Of a stretch of DNA of 64,000 nt, positions 6,471 to 57,696 are shown piece after piece (position 1 is the first letter of the stretch; each line of letters begins with the position of its first letter). Source of the DNA: a virus. Location of the stretch: positions 19,552 through 83,551 of IMG/VR virus record IMGVR_UViG_3300020180_000015; one strand, 5' to 3'. Position numbers and translations under genes: made by a program. Under the pieces are notes generated by a model, which was not told the origin of the DNA, searched no databases, and saw only the letters and a program-made list of their open reading frames with translations.

Positions 6471-6701
6471 ATGGATGAGCAGCAGAGTTTATTCGGTTTT
6501 ATTTTGGGAATTGTCGCTGCCGCCAACGGCGAGTGGATGACGAGGCAGCAGATCGGCGAGAAGATCGGGCGACCGAAGAATCAGCTTGTGCCGCACGACG
6601 TGAAGGTGCTAGAGGAACTTATCGCCTCTGGTTTGATCATTGGCGACCGCCGCAAAGTGGGAGCCGTCCGCACTGAATATGTTTACCGGGTGGAGGTGTA
6701 G
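6471..6701 (+). CDS. small winged-helix DNA-binding protein, 76 aa
   Basis: A compact protein with the helix pattern of a winged helix: GEWMTRQQIGEKIGRPKNQ (residues 21-39) as helix-turn-helix, a helix VKVLEELIASGLI, and a C-terminal wing RKVGAVRTEYVYRVEV. It starts at ATG 6471 behind GGAGAG and ends two bases before parM, so the two are cotranscribed. In plasmid partition operons a small regulator often accompanies the motor; that role is inferred by position only. It could equally be an early phage regulator. Confidence 0.6.
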   Translation: MDEQQSLFGFILGIVAAANGEWMTRQQIGEKIGRPKNQLVPHDVKVLEELIASGLIIGDRRKVGAVRTEYVYRVEV

Positions 6702-6703
6702 CG

Positions 6704-7777: not shown

Positions 7778-7783
7778 TCGTGG

Positions 7784-7818
7784 TAGAATGTCTTACAGCT
7801 GTAAGACACCTGTAAGAC
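7784..7818 (+). promoter_or_regulatory. operator / parC-like site between parM and parR-like gene
   Basis: A perfect 18-bp palindrome GTCTTACAGCTGTAAGAC (7790-7807) is followed by a further half-site CTGTAAGAC (810-818), the GTAAGAC units being 11 bp apart, one helical turn. An extended -10 (TGG then TAGAAT, 7784-7789) abuts it. This is the form expected for a ribbon-helix-helix repressor site and, in type II partition systems, for a centromere. The binding protein is inferred to be the next gene product. Confidence 0.6.
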
Positions 7819-7835
7819 ATATATGCGGGGCAGAT

Positions 7836-8393
7836 ATGGCAAAGGATAAGCGAGTCACTCTAACGATCAAACTACTGCCAGACGCAGACTCGGACATCAT
7901 TAAATGGTGGTCGAGTCTGCCGCTTGGCAGTAACAAAAACACCACTGGTAGTCGCAATACCTATGCCAAGACCGTGCTGCGGTATGCGATCAAAGAAGAG
8001 GATCATATCCGTGAATTAGAGGCTGAAAAGGTGGAGCTTGCGTCTCAACTCCAGCTTGAGCAGACACGGGTACACGATCTGCAAGGCGACATTGATCTGC
8101 TGCGTCGGCAGGCGACTAAGGCTTATGATCAACAGGATCGTGACATTAATGAGTTAAGAACGATATTGTCCCGACTCCCTATTATTGCCGAGAAAGCCGT
8201 GCAGCAATTTGTGCCAACGCAGTCCGACGCCGGGCGTTTAGACGATATTCAGCAGCAGCTAAATGAACTTATGGAACGTATCGAGGAAGTAGCAAAGACG
8301 CGCGGGACGGCTGAAAAGCCCACAAAAAAGCGGACACTTTCAGAGGAGGAACTTGCTGATCGTGATCGCCGGATGCAAAGAACGAACTGGTGA
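7836..8393 (+). CDS. ParR-like DNA-binding adaptor (ribbon-helix-helix plus coiled coil)
   Basis: The start at ATG 7836 is behind GGGGCAG; an upstream ATG at 7788 would read through the palindrome. The N-terminus KRVTLTIKLLPDADSDI followed by NTYAKTVLRYAI resembles the strand-helix-helix of ribbon-helix-helix proteins. Residues about 60-150 form a heptad-rich coiled coil (ELEAEKVELASQLQLEQTR), and the C-terminus is basic. Directly after parM and its operator, it is the expected ParR partner that binds the centromere and caps ParM filaments. ParR proteins diverge greatly, so this rests on context and fold pattern. The gene ends before a bidirectional terminator. Confidence 0.6.
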   Translation: MAKDKRVTLTIKLLPDADSDIIKWWSSLPLGSNKNTTGSRNTYAKTVLRYAIKEEDHIRELEAEKVELASQLQLEQTRVHDLQGDIDLLRRQATKAYDQQDRDINELRTILSRLPIIAEKAVQQFVPTQSDAGRLDDIQQQLNELMERIEEVAKTRGTAEKPTKKRTLSEEELADRDRRMQRTNW

Positions 8394-8409
8394 CGCCGGA
8401 ATGCTATAA

Positions 8410-9789: not shown

Positions 9790-9818
9790 TTGACTTCATA
9801 TTCTTTCCATTATACATT
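9790..9818 (+). promoter_or_regulatory. sigma70-like promoter with TATTCTTT element
   Basis: TTGACT (9790-9795), 17 bases, TACATT (9813-9818). The spacer CATATTCTTTCC matches the motif found in the other members of this promoter family. It serves the membrane-protein gene at 9857. Confidence 0.65.
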
Positions 9819-11888: not shown

Positions 11889-11939
11889 TTGACTTCGATC
11901 TCTGTTTAGCTTATACTCTTTACTGTAAAGATTATAAAA
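11889..11939 (+). promoter_or_regulatory. strong sigma70-like promoter with downstream operator
   Basis: TTGACT (11889-11894), 17 bases, TATACT (11912-11917). Immediately downstream lies CTTTACTGTAAAGATTATAAA, the reverse complement of the TTTATAATCTTT..GTAAAG element, covering the expected transcription start. The geometry matches the minus-strand promoter at 21381-21409. Confidence 0.75.
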
Positions 11940-17446: not shown

Positions 17447-18742
17447 ATGTCAGACGATCCACGCATCAAACATTCAAAGCTGAAGGACTTCACCCAAGAC
17501 CTTGAAAACGCGAATTTAGGCAGCGAACGCGGACAGCAAATGATCGAGGACTCCTTCCGAGAGTTAGGCGCGGCGCGTTCGATGGTCGCGGATAAGAACC
17601 GCACACTGATCGCCGGAAACAAGTCCGCCGAGGCAGCCATCGCCGCTGGACTTGAGGACGTGATCGAAGTTCACACGACGGGTAAAGAGGTGGTGATCGT
17701 CGTGCGTGACGACGTTGACTTGCTCGATGAAAGCGACTCGAAGGGTCGCCAGATCGCGTATCGAGATAATCGCTCCGCACAGGTATCCATGACGTGGGAC
17801 GCAGCGCGGTTGCTCGTCGACATGAAAACCCGTCCGGAAATCCTAGCAAAGATATTCACAGCCGATGAATTAAAGGTGTTGATCGCTCCGGCACTCGAAG
17901 CTGGCACAGGGGATGTGCCGGATGCCAAACTGGATCAGATCGAAGAAATTCATAAGAAGTGGGGCGCGAAAGAAGGCGACCTATGGCTCATCGAGTCAAA
18001 GTCGGGTTTCGGCGATCACCGGGTATTTTGCGGCGACTCGACCAAAGATGAGGATGTGCGCCTCGCCATCGGCGCACTGCATCCGAATCTGTGCATGACC
18101 GACCCGCCGTATGGAGTTGATTACGATCCGGCATGGCGCGAGGATATGGACATCGCACGCGGCGGCACGGGCGGCAACCACGCGATTGGCAAAGTACAGA
18201 ACGACGATATTGTCGACTGGAGCGCCGCGTATCGCCTGTTCCCCGGCAACGTGCTGTATGTGTGGCACGCCGGAGTATTCGCGCCGGAGGTCGGTATTAG
18301 CATCAAGGCGAGTGGATTTGATATTCGCGGTCAGATCATCTGGCGGAAACAAGCGCCTGTGATGAGCCGGGGCGCGTACCACTGGCAACATGAGCCAGCA
18401 TTCTACTCAGTCCGGCATGGGCAGACGGCGAACTGGAAAGGGGATCGCAAACAATCCACGATCTGGGACATCGCCAACATGAGCGCCGTGCAGGGCAGCG
18501 CCGAAGATAAACCGACGGGGCATTCTACCCAAAAACCCGCATCTGTTTTTACCCGATGCTTCCTGAACCACTCCCTTGCATCAGATGCAATCTACGATCC
18601 GTTTCTCGGATCGGGGACGGCGATTGCTGCGGCTGAGTCGTTGAGCCGCATCGGGTGCGGGTTGGAGATCGATCCTCGCTATGTTTCGTTGGTCATGGAA
18701 CGACTGTCGGATATGGGATTATCACCGAGGAGAGGCGAATGA
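17447..18742 (+). CDS. ParB-N-domain / DNA methyltransferase fusion, 431 aa
   Basis: The N-terminal 150 residues follow the ParB/sulfiredoxin-like domain seen in phage methyltransferases: NRTLIAGNKSAEAAIAAGL, then GRQIAYRDNRSAQVSMTWD. The C-terminal half is a beta-class methyltransferase with DPPYGVDYD (from residue 219) and DPFLGSGTAIAAAESL (from 384). DPPY suggests N6-adenine. These fusions often sit immediately upstream of the terminase, as here, which suggests modification of DNA about to be packaged. A palindrome at its start may control it. Confidence 0.88.
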   Translation: MSDDPRIKHSKLKDFTQDLENANLGSERGQQMIEDSFRELGAARSMVADKNRTLIAGNKSAEAAIAAGLEDVIEVHTTGKEVVIVVRDDVDLLDESDSKGRQIAYRDNRSAQVSMTWDAARLLVDMKTRPEILAKIFTADELKVLIAPALEAGTGDVPDAKLDQIEEIHKKWGAKEGDLWLIESKSGFGDHRVFCGDSTKDEDVRLAIGALHPNLCMTDPPYGVDYDPAWREDMDIARGGTGGNHAIGKVQNDDIVDWSAAYRLFPGNVLYVWHAGVFAPEVGISIKASGFDIRGQIIWRKQAPVMSRGAYHWQHEPAFYSVRHGQTANWKGDRKQSTIWDIANMSAVQGSAEDKPTGHSTQKPASVFTRCFLNHSLASDAIYDPFLGSGTAIAAAESLSRIGCGLEIDPRYVSLVMERLSDMGLSPRRGE

Positions 18743-22371: not shown

Positions 22372-22400
22372 TTGCTATTCATATTCTTTCACGTTAAAAT
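22372..22400 (+). promoter_or_regulatory. sigma70-like promoter with TATTCTTTCACGT element
   Basis: TTGCTA (22372-22377), 17 bases, TAAAAT (22395-22400). The spacer contains TATTCTTTCACGT, the recurring operator motif. It rules out the far-upstream start for the next gene. Confidence 0.7.
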
Positions 22401-23411: not shown

Positions 23412-25667
23412 ATGCCATATATGGCAATTGAACGAGACGGTAAATTTATGGTGTATGTGAGGGGCGCCGACAACAAACCCAAAGGGCGATCTCGCGGCAC
23501 TTACACAGGCGATGATGCAAAGGATCAGGCGGCGGAGCAGTTAGATAACCTACGGACTGTCGAACGCGGCGAACAGCAAAACCGCCGTCGCTACAATGGG
23601 CTTGATCTAGCTCCGCCTTCCGGCGTCCGTGCTGCGTGTCAGCGAGGATTAGATCAAGAAGGCGGCACGGCGCTTCAGCGGCAAGCTGCCGAACTGATCA
23701 CGTCCGGTTCGCAGTTATCCGTTCTCGCGATTCGCACTGTTGCGCGGCAGTTTAATAAGTCGCGCAAGTCGGGTGACGACCAACAGCATCTGCTGCGCGG
23801 CGGCGATGCTGGCGCGGTGTGGTTCAAGACCATGGCGGCGGCACTCGATAATATGGACAGCGGCGTGAAGTCGGCAAAAGAAGTTGGTGAAGGCACGGAA
23901 CGACGCCGTGAACGCGATGGGCCGTCCGGCATGGGCTTCGGCAGCGGCGGCGACTTTCGTCCGATTGATTATGACGCCTTGTCTCGTGAGTCATCGCGCC
24001 TGCAAAGGATGATGACAAGCGGTGATCTCGGACTCCCTGCGGCGTTGGGCGCGTTTGAACGAACCGTGCGCGAGGCGGCGAGTTTTGCAGGGGGTAGCAA
24101 ACGACAGGCACTGTCCCGCGCCGCTGATGACATCGAGAAAGGCATTCCCCTGTTCAAGTCGCCGATGCCGTCCGATGATAACTCATCAGCAATGTCGCCG
24201 CACGAACGCGGCATCGCAATGTTGAAGAATGCATTCGTGGCAATACGAATCGTGGCGAGTGCAAAGGCGATCACGGCATCCAACGCAAGCGGCGCGGGGT
24301 TTAGCATACCGCCGGATGACGACGGACTAGGAGCGACGGTGAGTATGCGTAAGGGCATGGAGGTTTACGTGAAGTCCACTGGCGAGATCGGCACGGTGCG
24401 CGGCGTGAAGCGAGTCGGCGACGGCGTGCGTTACAAGGTCGAGACGCCGAGCGGGTTTACGATCTGCAGCCGCAAGGGGATTATGTCGGCACGGGCGAAG
24501 GCGATCAAAGAAGCTGCCGTTGCATGTGACACGATCCAGAAGGCAGCGGACGCTGAAACAGTCGATGCCGAAACAGTGAAAGCGGCGCTCAAGGCACTGG
24601 CGACCAGTTGGAAGATCGCCGATATGTCGACCCGCGAGAAGATGCAAACATCCTATGATGCGCTGATCGCCGCCCGTGCGATCCTGACGGCGTCGCCGGA
24701 TGAATCAGACTTGGCGAAAAAGTATCTGGCGATGGCGAAAGCAGGACTCGATCCTATTGCCGAAGAAGGTGTGAAGGCATCTTACGACAATGGGGTGAAG
24801 CGGGCTGTCCAACTCCTGCAGATGGTTCGGGCGAGTTTGTCAGTCGATTCTCAACCGCAGCGATTGGGGAACGTGCGACTTTTAAACAAAGTCGACGGAC
24901 TCCTTTCCCGATTGCTCACGACGGCATCGCCGAACGGACAGCGCGTGTTTCGCGGCATCCAAGAAACGCTGTCGCGGTTCACGGATAACGAGGAGTCGTG
25001 GTACCCGGCACAGACGCCGATCAGCGAGTGGGAGCAGGGGATCAGTGATGCTTTGCGGCAGATGATAGCATTTGCCGGGGGGAGGGGCATTAAGGCGGAA
25101 GGTGAAGTCGAAAAGATGCGCGAAGTATTGATCAGCGCGTACAACGACAGGATCATCACCGGAGATGAAAGTAAACAGCTTGATCAACTGCGTCACCAGA
25201 CGAAAAACCCGATCGGCGACCTCGATTACTTTGATTATTCGATCAACGCATACGGCACGAAACCTGAATATCTCGCCAAACGTAAAAAGGTACTGCAGCG
25301 ACTCAACAGCATTATTCGGAAGCGCAATCGCCTAGTCGACGAGATCAATCAGCGGGCGGCAAAACCTCAGACAAAGAATACGGCGGAAGCGGCGCTGAAG
25401 GCACTGCAGGACGTGGTCGGCGAGATCACGACCGCTGGAGCATCAACCGATGACCAGCAGGAGCGAATGCTTGAAGCCGTCGATACGTTACATCTGTACG
25501 CCGCCGCCGCCGGAGAAAAGGCGATCAAGAGCCTTGAGCCACTCGAAGAGGCGTTATACGCAGAACCTGACGACGGACTGAGCGAGTGGCAGCAGCGGGT
25601 TGTCAGCATGATCGAAGATTACCAAGCGAAGATCGCCAGTGAACCAGAACCAGAAGCGGTGACCTAA
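23412..25667 (+). CDS. large hypothetical protein upstream of portal, 751 aa
   Basis: It begins MPYMAIERDGKFMVYVRGADNKPKG..., with a short beta N-terminus resembling the 'FCV...G' openings of some phage morphogenesis proteins. A long helical body rich in Ala, Lys and Asp follows. Around residue 300-355 lies a small beta segment (GATVSMRKGMEVYVKSTGEIGTVRGVKRVGDGVRYKV) that looks like an SH3/KOW-type barrel. It abuts the portal gene (TAATG). Position suggests a head or injected protein; function not recognised. Confidence 0.6.
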   Translation: MPYMAIERDGKFMVYVRGADNKPKGRSRGTYTGDDAKDQAAEQLDNLRTVERGEQQNRRRYNGLDLAPPSGVRAACQRGLDQEGGTALQRQAAELITSGSQLSVLAIRTVARQFNKSRKSGDDQQHLLRGGDAGAVWFKTMAAALDNMDSGVKSAKEVGEGTERRRERDGPSGMGFGSGGDFRPIDYDALSRESSRLQRMMTSGDLGLPAALGAFERTVREAASFAGGSKRQALSRAADDIEKGIPLFKSPMPSDDNSSAMSPHERGIAMLKNAFVAIRIVASAKAITASNASGAGFSIPPDDDGLGATVSMRKGMEVYVKSTGEIGTVRGVKRVGDGVRYKVETPSGFTICSRKGIMSARAKAIKEAAVACDTIQKAADAETVDAETVKAALKALATSWKIADMSTREKMQTSYDALIAARAILTASPDESDLAKKYLAMAKAGLDPIAEEGVKASYDNGVKRAVQLLQMVRASLSVDSQPQRLGNVRLLNKVDGLLSRLLTTASPNGQRVFRGIQETLSRFTDNEESWYPAQTPISEWEQGISDALRQMIAFAGGRGIKAEGEVEKMREVLISAYNDRIITGDESKQLDQLRHQTKNPIGDLDYFDYSINAYGTKPEYLAKRKKVLQRLNSIIRKRNRLVDEINQRAAKPQTKNTAEAALKALQDVVGEITTAGASTDDQQERMLEAVDTLHLYAAAAGEKAIKSLEPLEEALYAEPDDGLSEWQQRVVSMIEDYQAKIASEPEPEAVT

Positions 25668-28636
25668 TGGGGTTGTTAAACGAGATAGGGCAAGTTTACG
25701 GCGACGGCGTGAAGGCTGCTGTGAAGTCGCTGAGTAATCTACCGCGCCGTCCGGCGGCGACACGCTACCAGCGTCAAGCGCCGTTTGTGCGCGGCGCTCC
25801 TGCTCGGCGGCAGCAGTCGTTGATCATCAATGACGAACTGCAGCACGCGGTCAAGTCCGTCTCGTATAGCGATTTCATAAACGACTTCATAAATGCCGAA
25901 GGTACGAACTGGCGGAACAATTACTCCGAACAGCAGATCGAGTCGGCGTATGCCACGTCGGTTTACCTGTTTGCGGCGATGCGCCGCGTGGCGAACCTGT
26001 TCTCCATGGTGCGCTTTGTCGCCGAAGTCGACAAGGGCGGCGATTGGCAGCGGCTGCCAGATACTCACCACTTAAATAAAATATTCACAGTCGCCGGCGC
26101 ACGGTTCATGTACCACCTGTATATGTATTACGCGCTCTACGGCACGACGCTTGTTTATAAACGCAAGACCCGTAAGGCACTCGCCGCCTACCAGCGTGGC
26201 AAACTAATCAGCGGGTATTTGGAGGGCGGGATCGCAGGATTATCGGTCATCCCTAATTCGCGCTGGGAGATATTCGAGGACGAGTATCAGGGCGAGATTC
26301 AGGGATTTAGCCTGAACGAGCCGATGGGCGAACTGAAGGCGGGGATGCGGGATCGGGACGAGTTCGTGTACATCCACGACTTTGACCCGCGCTTTTTGAA
26401 CAACGGCATCTCGATGGTAAGTCTAGCGATCAACAACGCGATCACCAATGCCGCCATCGCACGATGGGCGGCACACTACTTTATGTCCGGCGCTATGCCG
26501 CTGCTGCTCATCAGCACTGAAGAAGACCCGGCGATGCAGACCGAAGCGGACTTGATCCGGCAAAAGAATTTTATCGAGCGGGCGTGGCAAGGGTTGTTCG
26601 GCAAGTTTGCGATGCGTGCCGTATTCACGGATCGCAAACTGAACGTGCAGCAAGCCGGGATTGATGCCGAGAAAGTTCAAGCACCGGATTTGAACCGTGA
26701 CTCATTGAACGCCATCGCTTCGGTATTCCAGATCGCGCCGGATTTAATCGTCCCGCCCGAAGGCGGCAGCGACAACGCACGGCATAAGTTCCTCATGATG
26801 GATGCATTTCGTTCGGCGATCCTGCCTGTCGCATGGCAGATGACAGACGTATTCAATGCCGACATGGGGCTGCACGATGCGAACGTGCGGATCGTGGTCG
26901 CAGAAGATGAGATCACGGCGCTGGATGCAGATCGCGCCGACAATGCGACCACTGAAACAGGGCTGTTTACCTCCGGTATCCAGACGTTCGGGGAAACCCG
27001 TGACCAGATGCGCTTCAAGCCATCGCCGGGACTCAAGCTGCTGGAGAGCTTTATCAATATCAATGGGCGGCTTCAGTCGGTTGAGCGAGTCCTGCGGGAT
27101 GACCAACTGCCAAGCGACTTTATCATGCAGTACGCGCCGACTGCGTGGGATGCCGGGATCGTCAAGCGTTCCGAAGTGCGAAAGCTAATGTTTAATCTGC
27201 CGACGCCTGCCGCTGAGGACGGGTACAAGTATGAAGTAGTGCCAGACCCATCGGCGGGCGGCGGCTTCGGCGGAGGTGGTACGCCGTCACCAGAACCGCC
27301 TGAAAACGGCGGAGGTTCGCTTCCTGCGGGTGATCGTCCCCAACTGCCCGGCAAAACGCCACAGGGCGGCACGGTCGCGCCGACGGTCGCTCCGACGGAC
27401 GGTGACAAGGCAGTCGATCAAAATCGTCAAATTGTCGATTTTGCCGGGATCGAAAGCGCCGAGACGGATGGGCGGATCATCCCGGTGACTCCGGTTGCGC
27501 GTTTGACGGCGAGTGCCACACAGCAGCATTCGGCATGTGCGTTACTCATGATCGGCGACGACCCACTGATCCAGACGGTTGCCACGCAGTTAGAGATCAT
27601 GCTCGACGGCGTCCCTGCTATTTGGCAAGACCCTGAAACGTATCACTGTACCCTCGTTTACAGTGATCATGCGACGGACGACCAGATCGCGGCGGCGCAG
27701 AAACTTATGCCGGAATACATGCCGGACATCACTTTGCGCGTGGATGGGTTGATCACGTTTGAGACGCAGGATGGTTTGTGCATCGCGCTGCGTGTGGATA
27801 CGACGCAGGGATTGGAAGGGTTGCAGAGCCACACTCGCACGTCGTTCAGTAACGCGGCGCTGCCGATTTCGCCTTACTCTGCTTCGGGGGCGTATATGCC
27901 ACATATCACGCTGTGCTATGTGCCGGACGAGACTCCCGTGCCGGAATTCACCTGCGCGATCAGCGTCGTGCCGCAGTGTATCCAAGTCACCCGCGACGAG
28001 TACAAAGTGGTCTTTGAACTGCCGTCGATCCGCGAGGCAGCGGGGGACGACCCGAACCACGCGCACAACCGACAGATGCTGATCGACGACGCCGAGATTA
28101 CACGGCAGTTCGTGCAGTCGGCGCTGCGGACATGGCGCGATACGGGGGAGCCGGGTCCCGGCTTGAGCGACGCGGTCAAGAACGTGGTACGTGAAGCACT
28201 GGCGCAGGATGCGGCGATGGCGTGGGACGCCGCGCTGAAGGCGTGCGATGACGGGTACTTTGACGACAGCGCCGATTTGACGGACGGGCATAATCCGATA
28301 TTGGGTGTAATGGCAAAGGCGAAACTAGCGATGCAGGAAACACCTGAAGCCGAACTGGATGCGTGGGAACGCTCCGCGTTCCGTAATGGGGTATCGAAGG
28401 CGGCGAGTCGGTTTGAAGTGAACCTGCTACCATTGGCGCTTGAGCAGACGGTGAAGGCGAGACTTGCCGATGTCAAAACGAAAACGGAAATCAAACTCGT
28501 GTTCAATGACGCCCGTGCCGCACTCGCCGAGAGTGCGCCGAAGGCAGTGGACGAGGACTCGCTGATGGCATGGGCGGAACGGGTCGCCGGGATGGACGGG
28601 TTGGGCGACTTGCTCGACGATGACTTGACTTCCTAA
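25667..28636 (+). CDS. portal protein fused to a 2H phosphoesterase domain, 989 aa
   Basis: Residues 1 to about 525 read as an HK97/SPP1-type portal (YATSVYLFAAMRRVANLFS, YALYGTTLVYKRK, LNAIASVFQIAPDLIVPP, then ETRDQM), the 12-mer through which DNA enters the head. A Gly/Pro linker (about 525-590) follows; it contains a copy of the dispersed palindrome. Residues about 615-790 carry two H-x-T motifs, YHCTLVYS (His660) and PHITLCYV (His746), the signature of 2H phosphoesterases, which include the LigT-type RNA enzymes and the anti-CBASS nucleases that cut cyclic nucleotides. A helical tail of about 200 residues ends the protein. Portals are usually 400-550 aa. Confidence 0.85.
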   Translation: MGLLNEIGQVYGDGVKAAVKSLSNLPRRPAATRYQRQAPFVRGAPARRQQSLIINDELQHAVKSVSYSDFINDFINAEGTNWRNNYSEQQIESAYATSVYLFAAMRRVANLFSMVRFVAEVDKGGDWQRLPDTHHLNKIFTVAGARFMYHLYMYYALYGTTLVYKRKTRKALAAYQRGKLISGYLEGGIAGLSVIPNSRWEIFEDEYQGEIQGFSLNEPMGELKAGMRDRDEFVYIHDFDPRFLNNGISMVSLAINNAITNAAIARWAAHYFMSGAMPLLLISTEEDPAMQTEADLIRQKNFIERAWQGLFGKFAMRAVFTDRKLNVQQAGIDAEKVQAPDLNRDSLNAIASVFQIAPDLIVPPEGGSDNARHKFLMMDAFRSAILPVAWQMTDVFNADMGLHDANVRIVVAEDEITALDADRADNATTETGLFTSGIQTFGETRDQMRFKPSPGLKLLESFININGRLQSVERVLRDDQLPSDFIMQYAPTAWDAGIVKRSEVRKLMFNLPTPAAEDGYKYEVVPDPSAGGGFGGGGTPSPEPPENGGGSLPAGDRPQLPGKTPQGGTVAPTVAPTDGDKAVDQNRQIVDFAGIESAETDGRIIPVTPVARLTASATQQHSACALLMIGDDPLIQTVATQLEIMLDGVPAIWQDPETYHCTLVYSDHATDDQIAAAQKLMPEYMPDITLRVDGLITFETQDGLCIALRVDTTQGLEGLQSHTRTSFSNAALPISPYSASGAYMPHITLCYVPDETPVPEFTCAISVVPQCIQVTRDEYKVVFELPSIREAAGDDPNHAHNRQMLIDDAEITRQFVQSALRTWRDTGEPGPGLSDAVKNVVREALAQDAAMAWDAALKACDDGYFDDSADLTDGHNPILGVMAKAKLAMQETPEAELDAWERSAFRNGVSKAASRFEVNLLPLALEQTVKARLADVKTKTEIKLVFNDARAALAESAPKAVDEDSLMAWAERVAGMDGLGDLLDDDLTS
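27419..27443. repeat. dispersed 25-bp palindrome, copy 4 (inside portal fusion linker)
   Basis: CAAAATCGTCAAATTGTCGATTTTG is placed in frame in the linker between the portal and 2H phosphoesterase parts of the 989-aa protein. Confidence 0.75.
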
Positions 28637-28652
28637 TCTTTCGAGTTAAGAT
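28625..28652 (+). promoter_or_regulatory. cassette-type promoter (TTGACT-16-TAAGAT)
   Basis: TTGACT (28625-28630), 16 bases containing CCTAATCTTTCGAGT, TAAGAT (28647-28652). It is nearly the same as the promoters at 36137, 36636 and 38949. Confidence 0.75.
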
Positions 28653-28691: not shown

Positions 28692-29093
28692 ATGGTCACA
28701 AAACGGCAATTGGCAATCAAGGCGGCACGAGTGCGTAGCCTGAAAACTGCGCCAGTCACGGCGGCATGGTTTAATCGTGCGGGCATCACGGTTGCGCGGA
28801 TGCAGCGCACATGGGGTGCGCGGCAGGGGCTGGTGTGGGCGGATTTCGTTAGTATCTGGTCTCCAATTAACGGATACAGAAACGACCTACCGCCGAGCAT
28901 CGTTCGTGCAGCCGGTCAACTGTACGACGTGGCTGCAAATCTGAACGGACATCGCGCAGAGACCCAACCGCAGGGTTGGATGCCGGGGATGGTATTCCCG
29001 GCGGAAACCAGAAACTGGAAGCGGGTAGACGGATTACTCGCTCGGTTGAAGGCGGAACTTGCCGATGCCGCCGACACACTATCAAGCGGTTAA
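28692..29093 (+). CDS. cassette protein, 133 aa
   Basis: It begins MVTKRQLAIKAARVRSL, similar to the MNRRQKVVIKAA start of the three cassette genes at 36-39 kb, and its promoter is of the same type. The rest (AAWFNRAGITVARMQRTWGARQ...) is different. Ribosome site AAAGGGA. A terminator follows at 29126-29155. So it is a self-contained promoter-gene-terminator unit between the portal and the head morphogenesis gene. Function unknown. Confidence 0.6.
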   Translation: MVTKRQLAIKAARVRSLKTAPVTAAWFNRAGITVARMQRTWGARQGLVWADFVSIWSPINGYRNDLPPSIVRAAGQLYDVAANLNGHRAETQPQGWMPGMVFPAETRNWKRVDGLLARLKAELADAADTLSSG

Positions 29094-29105: not shown

Positions 29106-29139
29106 GTGCCTGTCCCGTAACGTGAAGCCCTGCTACGCT
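29106..29139 (+). promoter_or_regulatory. late-type promoter-like element 3, in a terminator loop
   Basis: GTGCCTGTCC ... TACGCT (29134-29139), 28 bases apart. The hexamer lies in the loop of the terminator at 29126-29155. Confidence 0.55.
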
Positions 29140-29155
29140 ATCAGCAGGGCTTTTA
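29126..29155 (+). terminator. rho-independent terminator
   Basis: AGCCCTGCT-ACGCTATC-AGCAGGGCT followed by TTT ends the 28692 cassette. Confidence 0.8.
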
Positions 29156-30969: not shown

Positions 30970-30999
30970 CCCGCATGGAAACTTCCATGCGGGTTTTTT
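30970..30999 (+). terminator. terminator hairpin between promoter-like element and capsid gene
   Basis: CCCGCATGGAA-AC-TTCCATGCGGG then TTTTTT. It stops readthrough from upstream. Because a promoter-like element lies before it, it could also act as an attenuator of capsid expression. Confidence 0.8.
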
Positions 31000-31016
31000 G
31001 TTTTAGTCGAGGTGTC

Positions 31017-33365
31017 GTGACCGGAATTCTGCTCCATAAGGCGGGCGGCGCAATCAAATCCGTACAGCGCGGTAACGGGCTAATCGAGGGGTATTTGATC
31101 TCCTTCGGCGGACCCGCGGATACCGATCTGGAGGGGCAGTGGTTCACGCCACGCACAGACATCCGTGAGGACTATTTCCGCGACTATCCGATGCTGTTTC
31201 ATCACGGCATGGATTCGGCAGTGGGGTTAGACCCCATTGGGCGGATTTTGCGGGTCGACAAAGACAACGTGGGATGGCACGCCAAAGCCCAGCTTGATCT
31301 TCACGATCAATACGGGCGGCAGGTGAGTGAACTGCTTGATCTTTACCCGTTGGGGTGGAGTAGCGGTTCAGTGGATCACCTTGTCGTAATTGCGGACACT
31401 GGCGAAATTCTGGTGTGGCCCCTCTTTGAGGGGACTGTCACGCCGACGCCGGCGCAGTCTCGCAAAACGTCGGTGCGGGCTTTGAAAGCGGTGTTAACTC
31501 GCGGTCAAACGGGAATTCCGAGAGGGCTTCGTGCTAGAGCGGATGCCGGGATCGCTGCCAATCTCGAAAGCAGTGGAGGAACGGTCATGGCGTTGAGCGC
31601 GCGTAGAAGCACGGCTCAGTACGTGAAGAGTGTACTTAAGAAGGCGGGGTTTAAACCGACCCCCGAAGAAGAGATGGCGATTGCTGCCGATCTCGAAAGC
31701 AGTGGAGGAACGGTCATGGCGTTGAGAGCGCGTAGAAGCACGGTTCAGTACGTGAAGAGCGTACTCAAGAAGATGGGGTTTAAAGCGACCCCCGAAGAAG
31801 AGATGGCGATTGCTGCCGATCTCGAAGTACAGGATGCGATGCTGTCGGATGATGAGTTTGGCGATGCAACGTTGGCGGATGATGAGTTTGACGATGCAAT
31901 GATGTCGGATGATGAGTTCGGCGACGCGATGCTGTCGGATGATGAGTTCGGCGACGCGATGATGTCGGATGATGAGTTCGGCGACGCGATGCTGTCGGAT
32001 GATGAGTTCGGCGACGCGATGCTGTCGGATGATGAGTTCGGCGACGCGATGCTGTCGGATGATGAGTTCGGCGACGCGATGCTGTCGGATGATGAGTTCG
32101 ATCCGGCGATGCTGAGTTACCGCAAGTCGCGCCGCCGGACAGCGCGTTCGCGTCAGAAGTCGATGACTGTGGATCAGTCGCAGGAGATCAACGCCATGAG
32201 GCGGCGCATCAATGCGTTGGAATTGCAAGAAGCGCCGGGGGAGCGGATGATCGGTATGAAATCACTGCGTGTGACACGAGATCGGGCGGATCAGCCCGGT
32301 GCGTACAAGTCGGTATTCACCAAGTACATACGCTTCGGTGAGTTCCGCATGAACGACGATGATCGCCGTACTCTGCGAAAAGGGCAGGTGGATTACGGTG
32401 CAGCCGACCGGGTGACGGGCGTCAAGGCTTTGACATCCAGCACATCGGGCAGCGTCGGGTTTTCCGTGCCGGACGACTTCATTGCGGAATTGAACCGCAA
32501 CATCATGGTTGATGCAGTGACGGCGAATGAGTGTAAGCGCCGCACCACGACCAGCGATACGGTCTTGATCCCCGATCTGCAGACGACTGATGCTCGCCGT
32601 GCGTATGCCGGGCGCACCACATGGATCGGCGAAACTGCCGCAAACCAAGCGGAGACGGATGTGACGCCGATCACAATGGGGCAGATTCAACTGCCGATTC
32701 ACGTCTTACTCGTCTCGACCGTCGCATCACTTTCCAGTCTCGAAGATAGCGCGTTCGATTTACAGGCGTACATCACTGAGGCGTTCAGCGAAATGATCGC
32801 CATCGAACACGAAGAATTGATCTGGTCGGGCAACGGGCAGGGGAAGATGCGCGGCATCGTCACCGATACTCGCGTGACTGGCAGCGCGTCGACGGGTGTG
32901 TCCAGCGTGAGCGGATTCATCGCCAGCGGCAGCGCGGCGTCCATTGCCGACGCCGACAAAATCCGGTCATTGACCATGCACTTGCCGCCTCAATACCGGG
33001 CGCGTGCCAAGTGGTACATGAACAGCAACACGGCAAACATCATCATGCAGTTGAAGGACGCGAACGGGCGTTATCTGTGGGGCGATGAACAGGGTTTGAA
33101 TCAGGGTGCGCCAACCACACTCCTGAACAAGCCGATTGTGTTCAATGAATGGGCATCGGACGTGGCGGCGGGAGCATTCCCGATCTTACTCGCCGATCTC
33201 AGTCGTGGGTACACCATCGCTAATCGTGTGGAATTCAGCGTCCGCCGCTTTGATGACAGCACCTATGCGGTACAAGACAACACGCTCGTGTTGGGGCGTG
33301 CGCGTATGGGCGGCATGGTCACACAGCCCATTGCTATCAAGGCACTGAAGATCGCCGTCAGCTAA
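31017..33365 (+). CDS. prohead protease / repeat linker / major capsid fusion, 782 aa
   Basis: The start is GTG 31017 behind GAGGTG; the ATG at 30975 lies in the terminator. Residues about 1-150 match HK97-type prohead proteases, with MLFHHGMD (His62) and LGWSSGS (Ser115). Residues about 179-265 are two 43-aa repeats, and about 272-362 are nine acidic 10-residue repeats (DAMLSDDEFG). From about residue 390 it is an HK97-fold major capsid protein (TGVKALTSSTSGSVGFSVP, ELIWSGNGQGKMRGIV, PIVFNEWASD). Protease, scaffold-like linker and shell in one chain is unusual; the protease would cut itself out during maturation. Gene order supports this: it is the only capsid candidate. Confidence 0.85.
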   Translation: MTGILLHKAGGAIKSVQRGNGLIEGYLISFGGPADTDLEGQWFTPRTDIREDYFRDYPMLFHHGMDSAVGLDPIGRILRVDKDNVGWHAKAQLDLHDQYGRQVSELLDLYPLGWSSGSVDHLVVIADTGEILVWPLFEGTVTPTPAQSRKTSVRALKAVLTRGQTGIPRGLRARADAGIAANLESSGGTVMALSARRSTAQYVKSVLKKAGFKPTPEEEMAIAADLESSGGTVMALRARRSTVQYVKSVLKKMGFKATPEEEMAIAADLEVQDAMLSDDEFGDATLADDEFDDAMMSDDEFGDAMLSDDEFGDAMMSDDEFGDAMLSDDEFGDAMLSDDEFGDAMLSDDEFGDAMLSDDEFDPAMLSYRKSRRRTARSRQKSMTVDQSQEINAMRRRINALELQEAPGERMIGMKSLRVTRDRADQPGAYKSVFTKYIRFGEFRMNDDDRRTLRKGQVDYGAADRVTGVKALTSSTSGSVGFSVPDDFIAELNRNIMVDAVTANECKRRTTTSDTVLIPDLQTTDARRAYAGRTTWIGETAANQAETDVTPITMGQIQLPIHVLLVSTVASLSSLEDSAFDLQAYITEAFSEMIAIEHEELIWSGNGQGKMRGIVTDTRVTGSASTGVSSVSGFIASGSAASIADADKIRSLTMHLPPQYRARAKWYMNSNTANIIMQLKDANGRYLWGDEQGLNQGAPTTLLNKPIVFNEWASDVAAGAFPILLADLSRGYTIANRVEFSVRRFDDSTYAVQDNTLVLGRARMGGMVTQPIAIKALKIAVS
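31554..31811 (+). repeat. 129-bp tandem repeat, two copies, coding
   Basis: Two consecutive 129-bp units (43 codons) starting near 31554 and 31683 encode AANLESSGGTVMALS... and AADLESSGGTVMALR.... A third copy begins at 31812 (AADLE) and breaks off. Confidence 0.8.
31833..32102 (+). repeat. 30-bp tandem repeat, nine units, coding
   Basis: Nine consecutive 30-bp units encode DAMLSDDEFG with small changes; the later units are identical in DNA, pointing to recent expansion. It forms an acidic, flexible arm next to the capsid domain. Confidence 0.9.
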
Positions 33366-34988: not shown

Positions 34989-36140
34989 ATGCTGACCTAT
35001 GCTACGCTGCAGACATTTGCCAAAGTCAAAGGGATCAGCCTCGATCTATTATCTGACGAGGATGGCAGAATGCTGCGGGAATACCTGCGGCGTGGCACAC
35101 GCGAGATTGATCGGATCACGCGGCGGCGATTCTTTCCGTTTCACATGACTCGCCGTTACAGCATCCCGATGACTTATGCCGATCTACGTAACCGCGCACT
35201 GATCCACGAGGACTTACAACTCGACGCCGATCTCATGGAAGTCGTCCGGGTACAGGTGGGTACTGGCACCGTGATCGACTCCGGCGAGGATGTGCCGCTC
35301 GGCGGACTGACGGCGATTGCGACGACCTTCACTGCAACTGATGCCGATGGGCTTGACGATCAGAACATTGATCGCTTTGCCGTCGGGGTCGTACTGCAGA
35401 TCAAGAACGAGCAATGCGTTATCCGCGCACGGGATACTGGTACCAACGTCGTCACCTTAGAGCGCGGCGCATTCGGCACAATAGCCGCAGCCCACGCCGC
35501 CGGAGTGCAAATCTCCAAGAATGTCCTGACGACACTCGAACCGGGGATCGACTTTCATCTGCTCGACTTCAACATCAACCCGAAGTTTGCTATCCGGCTT
35601 GTGTTTCCGAACACGTGGGCGGGTCGCTATACAGGCGTGGCGTGGAGGTCGCGTTATCCTCAAATCTATGTCACAGGCTTTTGGGGGTTTCACGATCAGA
35701 TGCAGGAGGCGTGGGTCAATACCAACGACCCCATTCCTTCGGGCGGGATTACTGCCGTTGCGACGACATGGAATGCCCTCGCGGTGGATGGCACGGACGC
35801 CGCGAATGAGCTTCGCTTCCTTGTGGATCACCTGTACCGCGTCGAGAATGAATTGATGTGGTTGACGGCTGCCGACGATAACACTGGCGCGTTGACGGTG
35901 CTACGCGGGCAGCATGGCACACTCGTTGCCGCGCACGCCGCCGGAACACCAGTCTATCGATTCGCCGTGTTGGAGGATATTCGGAAGTCGTGCTTCAATA
36001 TCGCCAAGACGCTACGGGACTCTGACGACAGCGTTGGCGGGCGTCAGGGCGTGACCGAAGTGAGCGTTGGGGTGAAGATCACCTATGCCGCCGATGTTGC
36101 CGAAACATTGAAGCATTACATCCGGTCGTATATCGCTTGA
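34989..36140 (+). CDS. probable head-tail connector / adaptor, 383 aa
   Basis: The N-terminus (MLTYATLQTFAKVKGISLD, then REYLRRGTREIDRITRRRFFPF) matches phage head-tail adaptor proteins, which have an N-terminal helical bundle ('YATLADLK...L...A...ID..T.R.F'). The middle contains two related beta inserts (LTAIATTFTATDADGL and ITAVATTWNALAVDG). The C-terminus returns to helices (FNIAKTLRDSDDS, AETLKHYIRSYIA). Its place after the capsid group fits. Confidence 0.7.
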   Translation: MLTYATLQTFAKVKGISLDLLSDEDGRMLREYLRRGTREIDRITRRRFFPFHMTRRYSIPMTYADLRNRALIHEDLQLDADLMEVVRVQVGTGTVIDSGEDVPLGGLTAIATTFTATDADGLDDQNIDRFAVGVVLQIKNEQCVIRARDTGTNVVTLERGAFGTIAAAHAAGVQISKNVLTTLEPGIDFHLLDFNINPKFAIRLVFPNTWAGRYTGVAWRSRYPQIYVTGFWGFHDQMQEAWVNTNDPIPSGGITAVATTWNALAVDGTDAANELRFLVDHLYRVENELMWLTAADDNTGALTVLRGQHGTLVAAHAAGTPVYRFAVLEDIRKSCFNIAKTLRDSDDSVGGRQGVTEVSVGVKITYAADVAETLKHYIRSYIA

Positions 36141-36165
36141 CTTCCATAATCTTTTGAGTTAAGAT
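36137..36165 (+). promoter_or_regulatory. cassette promoter 1 (TTGACT-17-TAAGAT)
   Basis: TTGACT, 17 bases (TCCATAATCTTTTGAGT), TAAGAT. Identical to the copies at 36636 and 38949. Confidence 0.8.
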
Positions 36166-36220
36166 GGCGTTAGATTGAGTGCATAATTCCCCGCGTTGCG
36201 GGGGGGGGTGGTGGTTGGAA

Positions 36221-36583
36221 ATGAACAGACGGCAAAAAGTGGTAATCAAAGCGGCGGTCAAGCGGGGCGTAGCAAGAAGGTTAACTGATCCAGCAGTACG
36301 CTCGACACTAGTCGCTTTTATAACAAGAATTAGATCGTCGCTCCGACGTGGGTACGTGAATAGCGATGATTCAGAGGGGCTATACCTTTACATTATCAAA
36401 CAAGGAGATGATACACCCGAATTAGGTAGGATCTGGAGAGCGGCGTGGCGTATCCGTCTAATTGTCGCCGGCTCTCCGAGCGAGGGTCAAATGAAGGAAA
36501 TTAATGCCAAGTCGAAGGCGGTGATCGAGGCTTGGATGCGGACGTTGTTAGAGCATCTTCGCTCTACCAATATTCCTTCTTGA
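36221..36583 (+). CDS. cassette protein A, 120 aa
   Basis: The start is ATG 36221 (MNRRQKVVIKAAVKRGV), after a leader with hairpin CCCCGC-GTT-GCGGGG and a run of nine G. The body is basic and helical (RLTDPAVRSTLVAFITRIRSSLRRGYVNS...). It is paralogous to cassette protein B over its whole length. It has its own promoter in the middle of the structural operon, so it is a moron-like accessory gene; function unknown. Confidence 0.65.
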   Translation: MNRRQKVVIKAAVKRGVARRLTDPAVRSTLVAFITRIRSSLRRGYVNSDDSEGLYLYIIKQGDDTPELGRIWRAAWRIRLIVAGSPSEGQMKEINAKSKAVIEAWMRTLLEHLRSTNIPS

Positions 36584-36635
36584 TGCGCCGCAGCGGATTA
36601 CGGACATGGCTTATGACTCATCGTCGCTGATCCGC

Positions 36636-36664
36636 TTGACTTCCATAATCTTTTGAGTTAAGAT
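36636..36664 (+). promoter_or_regulatory. cassette promoter 2 (TTGACT-17-TAAGAT)
   Basis: Same bases as cassette promoter 1, in the second unit of the tandem duplication. Confidence 0.8.
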
Positions 36665-36717
36665 GGCGTTGGATTGAGTGTATAATTCCCCGCGTTGCGG
36701 GGGGGAAGTGGTTGGAA

Positions 36718-37062
36718 ATGAACAGACGGCAAAAAGTGGTAATCAAAGCGGCGATCAAATTGGGCGTAGAAAAAAGGTTAACTGATCCAGCAGTACGGTC
36801 AAGAATAGCCGCTTTTATAACAAGAATTAGATCATCACTTCAACGTGGTTACGTGAACAGCCAAGATTCAAATGGGTTGTTCGACTACGTTACCGCGCAA
36901 GCAGAAAATATTCCCGGAATGCGTGCGAGTTGGAAACCGGTGACACGTATTCAGCGAATTGTCGACGATCTTCCGGGTGATGGGCAGATGAAGGAGATTG
37001 ATGCCGAGTCGAAGGCGGGCATAGAAGTTGGGCTACGGGTGTTGTTAGAGTATCTTCGATAA
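36718..37062 (+). CDS. cassette protein B, 114 aa
   Basis: Begins MNRRQKVVIKAAIKLGV; shares RLTDPAVRS, FITRIRSSL and RGYVNS with protein A but differs at many positions, so the two have been kept while diverging. The leader has the same hairpin with a run of seven G. Helical, basic. Function unknown. Confidence 0.65.
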   Translation: MNRRQKVVIKAAIKLGVEKRLTDPAVRSRIAAFITRIRSSLQRGYVNSQDSNGLFDYVTAQAENIPGMRASWKPVTRIQRIVDDLPGDGQMKEIDAESKAGIEVGLRVLLEYLR

Positions 37063-37065
37063 CCA

Positions 37066-37572
37066 ATGTTACTTCTTGATGCGCCGCAGCGGATTGCGGA
37101 TATGGCTTATGACTCATCGTCGCTGATCCGCTTCACGGCGCACCTGCGGCAGTCGTCTCTCGACAGCCTCAAGCGTCCGGCGGTACTGGTGGAGGCGAAT
37201 GATGCCGAGTATCCGCCGACTGCGGCGGGGATCGAGAAACCGACTGAGACGTTTATCCTGTCGGTTGTCGGACAGAAATACGGCGTGGGTGCGCCGGGGG
37301 CAGCCGAACTCGAACTCCGGCAGGTCGCGCACGATTTGGCGGTGTACTTTTGGCGGCGGTCTCAGCTTCAATTCAGCAATCTGCGCGGCGCAAAGTCGAG
37401 CGAACTGCCGCCACTCACCGGAGTGGAGTCGAGCCGCCTAAGCCGCCGATCCTTTGTGACAACGGTCACACGAGGAGAGGACGGGGAGGGATCGTTTTGG
37501 GGGACAGAATTCACGCTCACGCTCACGCTGGCTGCGCGTGCGCTTGAAGTACTTGTGCCGAATAGGGGGTGA
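37066..37572 (+). CDS. tail-region structural protein (head-tail joining), 168 aa
   Basis: The frame opens at ATG 37066, which lies in the conserved 3' end of the cassettes; ATG 37102 (MAYDSSSLIRF) is probably the original start. The C-terminal half has LTGVESSRLSRRSFVTT and FTLTLTLAARALE, strands like those of phage tail terminators or gp10/gp17-type joining proteins. It is followed by a palindrome and small frame before the tail tube gene. Structural role inferred from place. Confidence 0.55.
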   Translation: MLLLDAPQRIADMAYDSSSLIRFTAHLRQSSLDSLKRPAVLVEANDAEYPPTAAGIEKPTETFILSVVGQKYGVGAPGAAELELRQVAHDLAVYFWRRSQLQFSNLRGAKSSELPPLTGVESSRLSRRSFVTTVTRGEDGEGSFWGTEFTLTLTLAARALEVLVPNRG

Positions 37573-37575
37573 AAT

Positions 37576-37600
37576 CAAATTCGTCAAATTGTCGAATTTG
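37576..37600. repeat. dispersed 25-bp palindrome, copy 5
   Basis: CAAATTCGTCAAATTGTCGAATTTG lies just after a tail gene stop and before a poly-G ribosome site for a 30-codon frame. Confidence 0.8.
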
Positions 37601-37611
37601 GGGGGGGCGGC

Positions 37612-37704
37612 ATGAAACAGGTCAAGTTTGTCCTTATCCGCATTGCCGACTGGATCGACGATAAGGTACGCAGTCGGCGTACCTTGTTTCCTATCGCAAT
37701 CTAA
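37612..37704 (+). CDS. possible small protein, 30 aa
   Basis: ATG 37612 has a very G-rich ribosome site (GGGGGGGCGGC). The product MKQVKFVLIRIADWIDD... is amphipathic and basic. It is followed by a strong terminator. Small but well placed; unrecognised. Confidence 0.4.
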   Translation: MKQVKFVLIRIADWIDDKVRSRRTLFPIAI

Positions 37705-37748
37705 TTCATACTGTGATCATATCATCTAATCGTCCGCACGATATGTCC

Positions 37749-37786
37749 CGGCGCACCAGAGAAGTTCTCTGGTGCGCCGTTTTTTT
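37749..37786 (+). terminator. strong rho-independent terminator
   Basis: CGGCGCACCAGAGAA-G-TTCTCTGGTGCGCCG then seven T, just before the tail tube gene. Confidence 0.9.
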
Positions 37787-37803
37787 GGGGAAAGGGAACA
37801 ACA

Positions 37804-38691
37804 ATGGCACAAATTGAAAGTGGTGGGCAGCACGGCTTGTATAAGATCGTCGCCCAACTCGTCGGCAGCGACGGCGTGAGCTATGGGGTTGCGGGCAGCG
37901 GCATTGCCGCCGGATCGACCAGTAACGCTTACGTGCTGGATCATCCGGTGAATGCGAATATCACCCTGCCGGACGGGGCGACGATAGATTTCACCGCGTC
38001 CGACCAATGGGTCACATCGTACCAGTATGGTCCCAGTTCGATGGGATCATTCGACTTCGAGTTAGAAAATCTTGACTCGAATTTCATCGCACTCTGCACA
38101 GGAACACTGTCAGATCAGACAACGAATGCGCTCTGGACTGAATACACACATAATGCCCACGCCGGCAATTTCCCGCAGATCAGTCTGATGTTCATTTATC
38201 GCATCCAGTCGTTTGAAGCGGCGACATTCGGCGCGACCAAGTACCTGCACACGATCTACCCGCGCAATTGGGTGCGCCCGAAGAAAAACGCGCAGCAGTA
38301 TCAGCAAAAATCGACATCGCCGTATCAGGTGACTCCGGCGGGCGGCGCTCGGCATATCAACGGTCACTTGTTCGGCACGAACTTAGCGTCGACGGATAAC
38401 CGGGTGGTGAGTTACAACATCATCACCGACAACCCGCTGCACATGGCGGTCTGTCATGTTGATGGCTCACCCGAAAGCATTATCACGGCGTATCAGCCTG
38501 TGAGCAGCGCAGTCGGCACATCGTCGAGTACCCGCAATCAACTCGTCAAGTGGATATCGCCGACGGCGACGCTCGGCGTGGCGGATACGATCACGACAGC
38601 CACTGGAACGTTTGCAGTCGGCACGGCGCTCACCGTCGCATCCGGCAACATCGTAACCGTGCTGTACGAAACAGCCTACGTGCCAGTGTAG
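37804..38691 (+). CDS. probable major tail tube protein, 295 aa
   Basis: Beta-rich protein with good ribosome site (AAAGGGAACAAC). Segments SFDFELENLDSNFIALCTG, QISLMFIYRIQSFEA and LHTIYPRNWVRPKKNAQQYQQ follow the pattern of siphovirus tail tube proteins. A C-terminal small domain (residues about 235-295) resembles an added Ig-like module. It precedes the chaperone pair and tape measure, as expected. Strong promoter of its own not found; high expression may come from the leader. Confidence 0.65.
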   Translation: MAQIESGGQHGLYKIVAQLVGSDGVSYGVAGSGIAAGSTSNAYVLDHPVNANITLPDGATIDFTASDQWVTSYQYGPSSMGSFDFELENLDSNFIALCTGTLSDQTTNALWTEYTHNAHAGNFPQISLMFIYRIQSFEAATFGATKYLHTIYPRNWVRPKKNAQQYQQKSTSPYQVTPAGGARHINGHLFGTNLASTDNRVVSYNIITDNPLHMAVCHVDGSPESIITAYQPVSSAVGTSSSTRNQLVKWISPTATLGVADTITTATGTFAVGTALTVASGNIVTVLYETAYVPV

Positions 38692-38697
38692 CCGCCG

Positions 38698-38952
38698 ATG
38701 GACGAGCGATTAGGGCAGCGAAATGAAACAGGGGCGGTGATCCAGTATCCCGCCCTGTACGCCAACGGTGCGCCGTTCACGCCGCGCACGGGCATCACAA
38801 CGGTAAAGGTGGGGCGGGGCTATTTTTACGCGCTGCAACCCGGCATTGCGGTCGCGCCGAACCACGCCGAACTGGGCGCGCTGGCTGCGCCGCCGCCGGA
38901 AGTGGACACCGATGAGGACGGGGATTATCCAGTCGCCGCCGAAATCGCTTGA
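38698..38952 (+). CDS. hypothetical structural protein, 84 aa
   Basis: Small protein ending in an acidic tail (PPPEVDTDEDGDYPVAAEIA). The stop overlaps cassette promoter 3. Likely tail-associated by position. Confidence 0.55.
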   Translation: MDERLGQRNETGAVIQYPALYANGAPFTPRTGITTVKVGRGYFYALQPGIAVAPNHAELGALAAPPPEVDTDEDGDYPVAAEIA

Positions 38953-38977
38953 CTTCCATAATCTTTTGAGTTAAGAT
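38949..38977 (+). promoter_or_regulatory. cassette promoter 3 (TTGACT-17-TAAGAT)
   Basis: Same as cassette promoters 1 and 2; it begins inside the stop codon region of the preceding gene. Confidence 0.8.
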
Positions 38978-39028
38978 AGCGTTAGATTGAGTGCATAATT
39001 CCCCGCGTTGCGGGGGGGGTGGTTGGAA

Positions 39029-39475
39029 ATGAACAGTCGGCAAAAAGTGGTAATCAAAGCGGCGATCAAGCGGGGCGTGCCGCGCACGAAAGACATCACC
39101 AGCGGAATACAAGAGGGCGTCGGCTCGTTGATGAGACAGGTTAGTCGCGCATCCGAACAGGGCGGTAATCCTAATTCCCCGGCGACAGATGTTTACAACG
39201 CTGCCGATCTCTACAAATTGGCGCAGGGATCGCGGTCATTACTCATGCGAGTACAGAACCTCCCCGATGGGTTTCTCAAGGACAAGGTAGGCGGCTCTTT
39301 AAACAGAGCAAACGCCGGTTTGAATAAGCTGAGTGCCAAGCTCGGACAGCGAACTGCGGGCGAGGCGAGATGGCAGTTACAAAGTATCAGCTTGACTCTT
39401 GAGGATGCCGATAAATGGCTGGCTAATCACCGCGTTATAATTGAACGGCGGCGGCTAACCAATGTTACTTCTTGA
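39029..39475 (+). CDS. cassette protein C, 148 aa
   Basis: It begins MNSRQKVVIKAAIKRGV like A and B, then diverges completely (RTKDITSGIQEGVGSLMRQ, LYKLAQGSRSLLMRVQNLP). It ends with LTNVTS encoded by the shared 3' end, CTAACCAATGTTACTTCTTG. Conserved ends with a swapped centre suggest recombination between cassettes. The leader hairpin is followed by eight G. A terminator follows. Confidence 0.65.
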   Translation: MNSRQKVVIKAAIKRGVPRTKDITSGIQEGVGSLMRQVSRASEQGGNPNSPATDVYNAADLYKLAQGSRSLLMRVQNLPDGFLKDKVGGSLNRANAGLNKLSAKLGQRTAGEARWQLQSISLTLEDADKWLANHRVIIERRRLTNVTS

Positions 39476-39489
39476 TGCGCCGCTAACCC

Positions 39490-39513
39490 AACACCCCGCA
39501 CGGGGTGTTTTTT
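39490..39513 (+). terminator. rho-independent terminator after cassette C
   Basis: AACACCCCG-CA-CGGGGTGTT with TTTTTT. Confidence 0.85.
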
Positions 39514-57007: not shown

Positions 57008-57232
57008 TCACCCACTCATCGGCGTTTTTATACGTTCGGCGGAGCAGGTCGCGCAGTCCGTCAATTTCGCGTCTTCGGTGATCCGCCAATAATAATCCTC
57101 GTACAGGACATAGGCGTTTAGTATCGGCAGTTGCACCATCGCTTTTGTGCCAACCGTCTGGATTTCAATGCCGCCGCCATCCCCTACCTGCGCGATGCGA
57201 ATCTTAGAAAGCCCTACGCTATCCTGAGCCAT
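57008..57232 (-). CDS. small protein with duplicated segment, 74 aa
   Basis: It contains NAYVLYEDYYWRITEDAKL, nearly the same as NAYILYEDYCWRITEDAKL in the next gene upstream; the DNA for this part is a 55-bp near-identical direct repeat. The C-terminus TDCATCSAERI has a CxxC. Probably a partial duplicate of the neighbour. Confidence 0.55.
   Translation of the reverse strand: MAQDSVGLSKIRIAQVGDGGGIEIQTVGTKAMVQLPILNAYVLYEDYYWRITEDAKLTDCATCSAERIKTPMSG
57066..57120. repeat. 55-bp direct repeat (copy 1; copy 2 at 57479-57533)
   Basis: The two copies differ at about three bases and encode LYEDY.WRITEDAKL in two neighbouring genes, so one gene took the segment from the other. Confidence 0.75.
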
Positions 57233-57240
57233 ACTGTCCC

Positions 57241-57696
57241 CTAGAAAGTCGGTTTAATCGACTGTACCCGCTGCCCGTTATGGACACGCGATAGGTTTCG
57301 CGCCATCCCCTGAAAATACTCTTTGTTGATTTCCTTCCAACCGTCCTGCTGGAGCAGTTGATCGGCGAGTGCCTTATCTTGAGTCTGCAAAATAGACACG
57401 ACGCCTTCCCCGTTCCACTGCCGCAGGTAACGCCACGCTGGGAATACAAAGTGTGCTTTTGCGTGCGTCACCAGCAGCTTCGCATCTTCGGTGATCCGCC
57501 AACAATAATCCTCGTACAGGATATAGGCGTTTAGTGCCTTGCTTTGTGCGACGTTGGCGGGGAAACCCACCTTATAGGGACGGACACGGTTCTCGTCATC
57601 CGCCGCCGCGACCGCGCTCACCAGACAATCGCGCTGCGCCGGCGATAGGTTTAACCACTCTGAGTTTTTGAATGCCTCATCAAATGGGTCGCTCAT
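57241..57696 (-). CDS. hypothetical protein, 151 aa
   Basis: Starts at ATG 57696, overlapping the upstream stop as ATGA. It contains EWLNLSPAQRDCLVSAVAAADDENR and the LYEDYCWRITEDAKLLVTHA segment. The C-terminus is basic. Unrecognised; member of the minus-strand operon. Confidence 0.6.
   Translation of the reverse strand: MSDPFDEAFKNSEWLNLSPAQRDCLVSAVAAADDENRVRPYKVGFPANVAQSKALNAYILYEDYCWRITEDAKLLVTHAKAHFVFPAWRYLRQWNGEGVVSILQTQDKALADQLLQQDGWKEINKEYFQGMARNLSRVHNGQRVQSIKPTF

Follow-up and report, generated by a model that had tools for sequence, protein, structure and literature searches.

Results

Four cassettes in the late region of a tailed-phage genome

The window analysed here comprises 64,000 nucleotides and spans bases 19552 to 83551 of a virus record (an IMG/VR contig) that is 83,551 bases long. 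Four small genes, each preceded by a promoter-like site and termed cassettes A to D hereafter, are located in the late region of this tailed-phage genome, amid head and tail genes (Table 1). Judging by their position, the genes after the capsid gene are probably head-tail connector and tail genes, most of them having no family match. The TGA of the promoter-like site doubles as the stop codon of the upstream gene at both A (gene 34989-36140) and C (gene 38698-38952), and a terminator-like hairpin with a T-run follows C and D, with none found directly after A or B. GC content is 47-49% in A/B, 54% in C and 59% in D, compared with 57-60% in the surroundings, and the reading frames of A, B and C are intact.

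Table 1. Coordinates (window numbering) of the cassettes, their neighbours and the promoter-like sites of the same class
Feature	Position	Strand	Remark
Same-class promoter	9790..9817	+	4 mismatches; upstream of gene 9857
Same-class promoter	11905..11932	+	6 mismatches; upstream of gene 11953
Same-class promoter	22372..22400	+	5 mismatches; upstream of gene/likely start
Portal-type protein	25667-28636		2'-5' RNA ligase domain; upstream of D
D promoter-like site	28625..28652	+	16-nt spacer; contains the stop of the upstream portal-type ORF
D gene	28692..29093	+	133 aa
Terminator-like hairpin after D	29125..29152	+	z = -3.5
Capsid protein	30975-33365		Between D and A-C
A promoter-like site	36137..36165	+	TTGACT-17-TAAGAT
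A leader	36166..36220	+	G-run; hairpin CCCCGC/GCGGGG
A gene	36221..36583	+	120 aa; GC ~49%
Relic of gene-37066 head after A	36566..36636	+	67/71 identical to 37062-37132
B promoter-like site	36636..36664	+	TTGACT-17-TAAGAT
B gene	36718..37062	+	114 aa; GC ~47%
Neighbour gene	37066..37572	+	168 aa; directly after B
C promoter-like site	38949..38977	+	TTGACT-17-TAAGAT
C gene	39029..39475	+	148 aa; codons 1-17 like A/B, rest unrelated
Gene-37066 head segment at C	39456..39483	+	28 nt identical to 37060-37087; overlaps C gene end
Terminator-like hairpin after C	39490..39509	+	

A DnaB-type helicase, a sliding clamp, DNA methylases and an actin-like protein are also encoded by the phage. The methylase-like genes lie at window positions 741-5356 and 17447-18742, and most of them match the same stretches of other phages. 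The presence of the actin-like gene (ALP_N, MreB-like) at 6704-7777 suggests a plasmid-like partition of the phage genome. In addition, the palindrome ATTCGACAAATTGTCGAAT is dispersed in seven copies (window positions 4527, 9756, 17418, 27422, 37579 and 63659, and record base 16241) that are ~5-26 kb apart, with 0.03 matches being expected by chance in the window; these copies could possibly be repressor or partition sites. Finally, one 796-aa ORF contains tandem 129-nt and 30-nt repeats (DDEFGDAMLS) at 31550-32144, with a long N-terminal part before them and the capsid domain after them.

A shared 5' block with a promoter class of the phage

The promoter-like sequence TTGACT-17-TAAGAT had been described in the initial annotation as common to A, B and C, together with the first 16-17 codons of their genes, and both observations hold. 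Its 29 nucleotides are matched exactly at the three cassettes, with no other match within 3 mismatches and none in 100 shuffles, while codons 1-17 differ at 4 of 51 nucleotides between A and B, 3 between A and C and 5 between B and C. As a whole, the shared 5' block of promoter, leader and gene start extends over 139 nt at 95% identity between A and C and over 135 nt at 93% between B and C. The leader hairpin, claimed as a further shared element, folds no better than shuffled sequence (z -0.6 to -1.1) and was dropped as a structured element.

Four further sites of the same promoter class are found elsewhere in the genome, three of them listed in Table 1 and the fourth at -9896, to the left of the window. 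With a pattern built on A-C, D and the -9896 site, 6 sites with at most 4 mismatches were obtained versus 0 in 60 shuffles, a count that takes in three sites from which the pattern had been derived. Because this class is used elsewhere in the phage, it is not a cassette-specific mark, and A-D are predicted from their promoter-like sites to be transcribed from copies of it.

Cassette D had been regarded as a diverged fourth member. In addition to a promoter of the same type, its start shares with A-C a 27-nt DNA similarity ~11-35 nt from the ATG, which is equalled or exceeded at 7 of 2484 ATG sites, a count including A-D themselves. By contrast, its first 20 residues score 26 versus 30 for another phage gene, so that its kinship rests on DNA, and D as a protein-level N-terminal relative was not supported. 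D is probably an older relative of A-C, tied to them mainly by the promoter and those 27 nt. In PHROGs, D weakly matches phrog_337, a tail protein (E = 0.0012), and this match serves as a lead only.

The common 3' end is the start of a neighbouring gene

The 3' sequence TAACCAATGTTACTTCTTGATGCGCCGC was taken initially for a constant tail of the cassettes. Instead, the start codon and opening codons of gene 37066-37572 lie within it, the shared 3' end consisting of the first 22 nt of this gene (first seven codons) and 6 nt upstream; it is therefore the head of the neighbour gene. The 28 nt recur exactly after C and at 86% after A. The relic after A runs for 71 nt, with its start codon changed from ATG to ATA (36570-36572), and stops at CGCTT, right at the start of the B promoter. 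Such a continuation up to CGCTT is characteristic of a tandem duplication, with a unit of ~497 bp, a 5-bp joint and the relic forming its right end. The chance of a microhomology of at least 5 at the A/B joint is 0.006. These data indicate that A and B arose by tandem duplication of a cassette plus gene head at the 5-bp microhomology CGCTT.

Given that C ends with 28 nt of the gene-37066 head and has ATCGC upstream of its promoter in common with A, the simplest reading is that C would be an ectopic copy of the A/B locus, and this is the most likely origin; we infer the direction of copying. As a relic of the neighbour gene, the 3' end marks the origin of the copy, not a designed exchange site.

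Predicted products and searches for relatives

With moderate confidence, AlphaFold2 modelled B as a helical protein (mean pLDDT 75, two sequences) and C as a predicted four-helix bundle (mean pLDDT 70, one sequence), and fold searches of both against viral and PDB libraries returned generic helical bundles that were functionally uninformative. The A-D products would be small, mostly helical proteins. PADLOC, Pfam and PHROGs gave no defence-system or firm phage-family match for A-D, the phrog_337 hit of D being weak. The initial annotation suggested looking for the constant ends in other phages; however, exact DNA, back-translated peptide and tblastn searches of viral, genome and phage collections returned no relative of A-D, and near relatives may be masked in these searches. 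Used as single queries, the MCP and a 751-aa protein assigned as terminase by position found no kin in viral contigs, and an MCP profile recovered distant kin only (at most 38% identity), which are without cassettes, so that no close late-region relative was found. The role of A-D would be an accessory one, e.g. in host takeover, counter-defence or superinfection exclusion.

Centres of different origin and age between the shared ends

As proposed, the A and B proteins are full paralogues, with 62% amino-acid identity. From residue 18 onward, alignment of C with A or B is no better than with shuffles (p = 0.11 and 0.64), and the similarity breaks off abruptly at codon 17-18. The centre of C is therefore unrelated to A/B, as had been noticed, and homology throughout its length was not seen.

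We compared the divergence of A and B along their length. From codon 18 onward, the centres show differences at ~25 out of 72 synonymous sites (35%), versus 4 of 71 positions (6%) in the relic and 3 of 69 in promoter plus leader. By Fisher test, the difference is significant against the relic (p = 1.6e-5) and against the pooled ends (p = 3e-8), in a comparison of few sites that sets synonymous against non-coding sites, on which constraint may differ. The relic after A has been freed of its gene-37066 coding role since the duplication, and promoter/RBS function may have slowed change in the 5' block. The A/B centres appear older than the ends because protein selection does not explain high synonymous divergence. 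These results support reading A versus B as a mosaic in which the centres are significantly older than the ends. Either the centres were exchanged or the ends were homogenised by gene conversion, for which the same A/B pattern is expected. The different ages lend support to a replacement of centres between homologous ends.

If A, B and C all derived from one ancestral gene solely through duplication, selection could have held promoter, leader and start while diversifying selection drove the bodies apart, that of C beyond recognition. Helical models for both B and C, a faint LY motif aligning across members and plausible constraint on promoter and RBS would agree with this. However, the relic has diverged far less than the synonymous sites of the centres despite having no start codon, and C shows an abrupt break with no residual similarity above shuffles, making constraint with fast divergence an unlikely explanation.

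It is more doubtful still that the first 17 residues, which are basic, form a selected functional module targeting the bodies, e.g. into the virion. Retention of the same start with two non-homologous bodies, the predicted N-terminal helix and the RQ..IKAA kept in D are what such a module would predict. However, the A/B and A/C changes in codons 1-17, small in number, are mostly amino-acid changing, so that the shared start looks recently copied and not protein-constrained. In addition, identity is equally strong through the untranslated leader and promoter, and the protein start of D scores no better than that of an unrelated phage gene.

A different gene-start module in the left arm

Bases 1-8400 of the record, a left arm lying outside the window, contain nine copies of a different gene-start module, placed before mostly unrelated genes. 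It consists of a variable hairpin followed by AATCAGCCCC-loop-GGGGCAGAARGAA and then ATG, and an alignment of nine related copies showed that pairing in the first hairpin is kept through two-sided changes at three pairs. An Ala-rich paralogue family with similar ends and variable centres is also present in this arm, and a further mosaic pair is found at window 57008-57696, where two neighbouring minus-strand genes have a 57-nt internal segment in common (95%) and are otherwise different.

Two IMG/VR records, G001 and G002, share the left-arm module and some accessory genes with this phage at 80-95% DNA identity. A tail-region gene in them is 78-92% identical to that of the phage, with no capsid gene match, and the two records are 97-98% identical to each other over long stretches. 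In G001, a 241-aa-type Ala-rich gene lies directly behind one module and is fused in frame to a gene that is free-standing in G002, which shows that sequence was inserted or deleted precisely at such a module in phages sharing genes with this one. Separately, counts of GAGAGGGGNCGGGGGTGAG are 24 for 43.5 kb of G001 and 8 for 19.9 kb of G002, but two for this phage. The left-arm module and the G001/G002 boundary concern loci other than A-D and provide indirect support for the general exchange idea. That the lineage uses gene-start modules as a regular exchange system, joining a constant expressed start to a swappable body at a boundary within the coding sequence and with the help of a phage recombinase, is a speculative extension and rather improbable.

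Discussion

Taken together, these results lead us to favour, with a probability of roughly 0.6, A-D as moron-like cassettes, A-C having been copied by duplication and their bodies then replaced between shared ends. For A-C, the duplication of a moron-like cassette is well resolved, and body replacement is probable. The starting point would be one cassette flanked by the present genes 34989-36140 and 37066-37572. Ectopic copying to 38949 of a segment that begins in the final codons of the upstream gene (ATCGC) and reaches codon 7 of the downstream one would have given rise to C, and separately the cassette and gene head would have been duplicated in tandem at the CGCTT microhomology to yield A and B. 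Recombination within the shared promoter, leader and start to the left of the gene bodies, and within the shared downstream segment to their right, would then have replaced these bodies. This would have left C with an unrelated body, and A and B with bodies that predate their ends. Its own promoter would drive transcription of each gene, and the product would be a small, mostly helical protein. The recombination between constant ends put forward in the initial annotation is upheld in part: the non-homologous centre of C and the A/B mosaic agree with it, but the 3' end is a neighbour-gene relic.

Three copies at two sites (A/B in tandem and C apart) and a small size would also suit a discrete, MPME-like mobile element moving the cassette. 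This is very improbable, since the cassettes, unlike MPME, have no terminal inverted repeats (no inverted repeat pairs both ends of any cassette), C terminates on its right in a piece of gene 37066, and tandem duplication accounts for A/B. An assembly artefact from a mixed phage population is scarcely credible: such repeats can be misjoined in an IMG/VR virus contig like this record, but the copies carry substitutions in every part (3/69, 1/69 and 4/71) and their frames are intact.

The duplication and body replacement favoured here make A-D a small, well-traced example of phage accessory-gene reshuffling. The dead gene head, the microhomology joint and the copies of different age kept in this one genome allow the steps to be put in order, and through these cassettes exchange at short shared boundaries becomes a testable idea.

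Several known systems resemble the cassettes, the nearest being morons combined with the kind of boundary-sequence exchange proposed for T4 PeSLs. Morons of tailed phages (defined e.g. in PMC4378225 and PMC3029335) are, as A-D appear to be, single ORFs with their own promoter located between structural genes. Among other moron traits, a terminator after the gene may have its counterpart in the terminator-like hairpins of C and D, and a deviating base composition may have one in the GC content of A and B. A moron would also separate genes that are neighbours in kindred phages, and no close late-region relative turned up for this comparison. Unlike morons, several copies here share promoter, leader and 17 codons within one genome and have different bodies. 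How morons are acquired or replaced is largely unknown, the mechanism having been termed mysterious (PMC4378225).

In the account given in PMC4503421 (of Arbiol 2010 and Comeau 2014), promoter/stem-loop (PeSL) cassettes of T4-like phages are proposed to serve in shuffling. As there described, they place a repeated regulatory sequence beside different accessory genes as proposed shuffling homology, a layout that the repeated promoter here may parallel. Unlike PeSL as portrayed in that account, the present repeat enters the coding sequence, its leader hairpin is not significant and its right boundary is a neighbour-gene relic. The start-associated sequences (SAS/ESAS) of Cluster K mycobacteriophages (PMC3203893) are likewise repeats at the starts of different gene families, which the left-arm module resembles in its hairpins, RBS and ATG. 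The repeat sequence here is unrelated: the 13-bp SAS GGGATAGGAGCCC gave 1 match at 2 mismatches in the window versus 0.97 expected, which is chance level. Finally, the short conserved boundary sequences discussed in PMC3029335 involve module exchange via homologous recombination at flanking repeats, as proposed here for the cassette bodies; unlike them, the flanks of A-C are paralogous within one genome and reach 135-139 nt at the 5' side.
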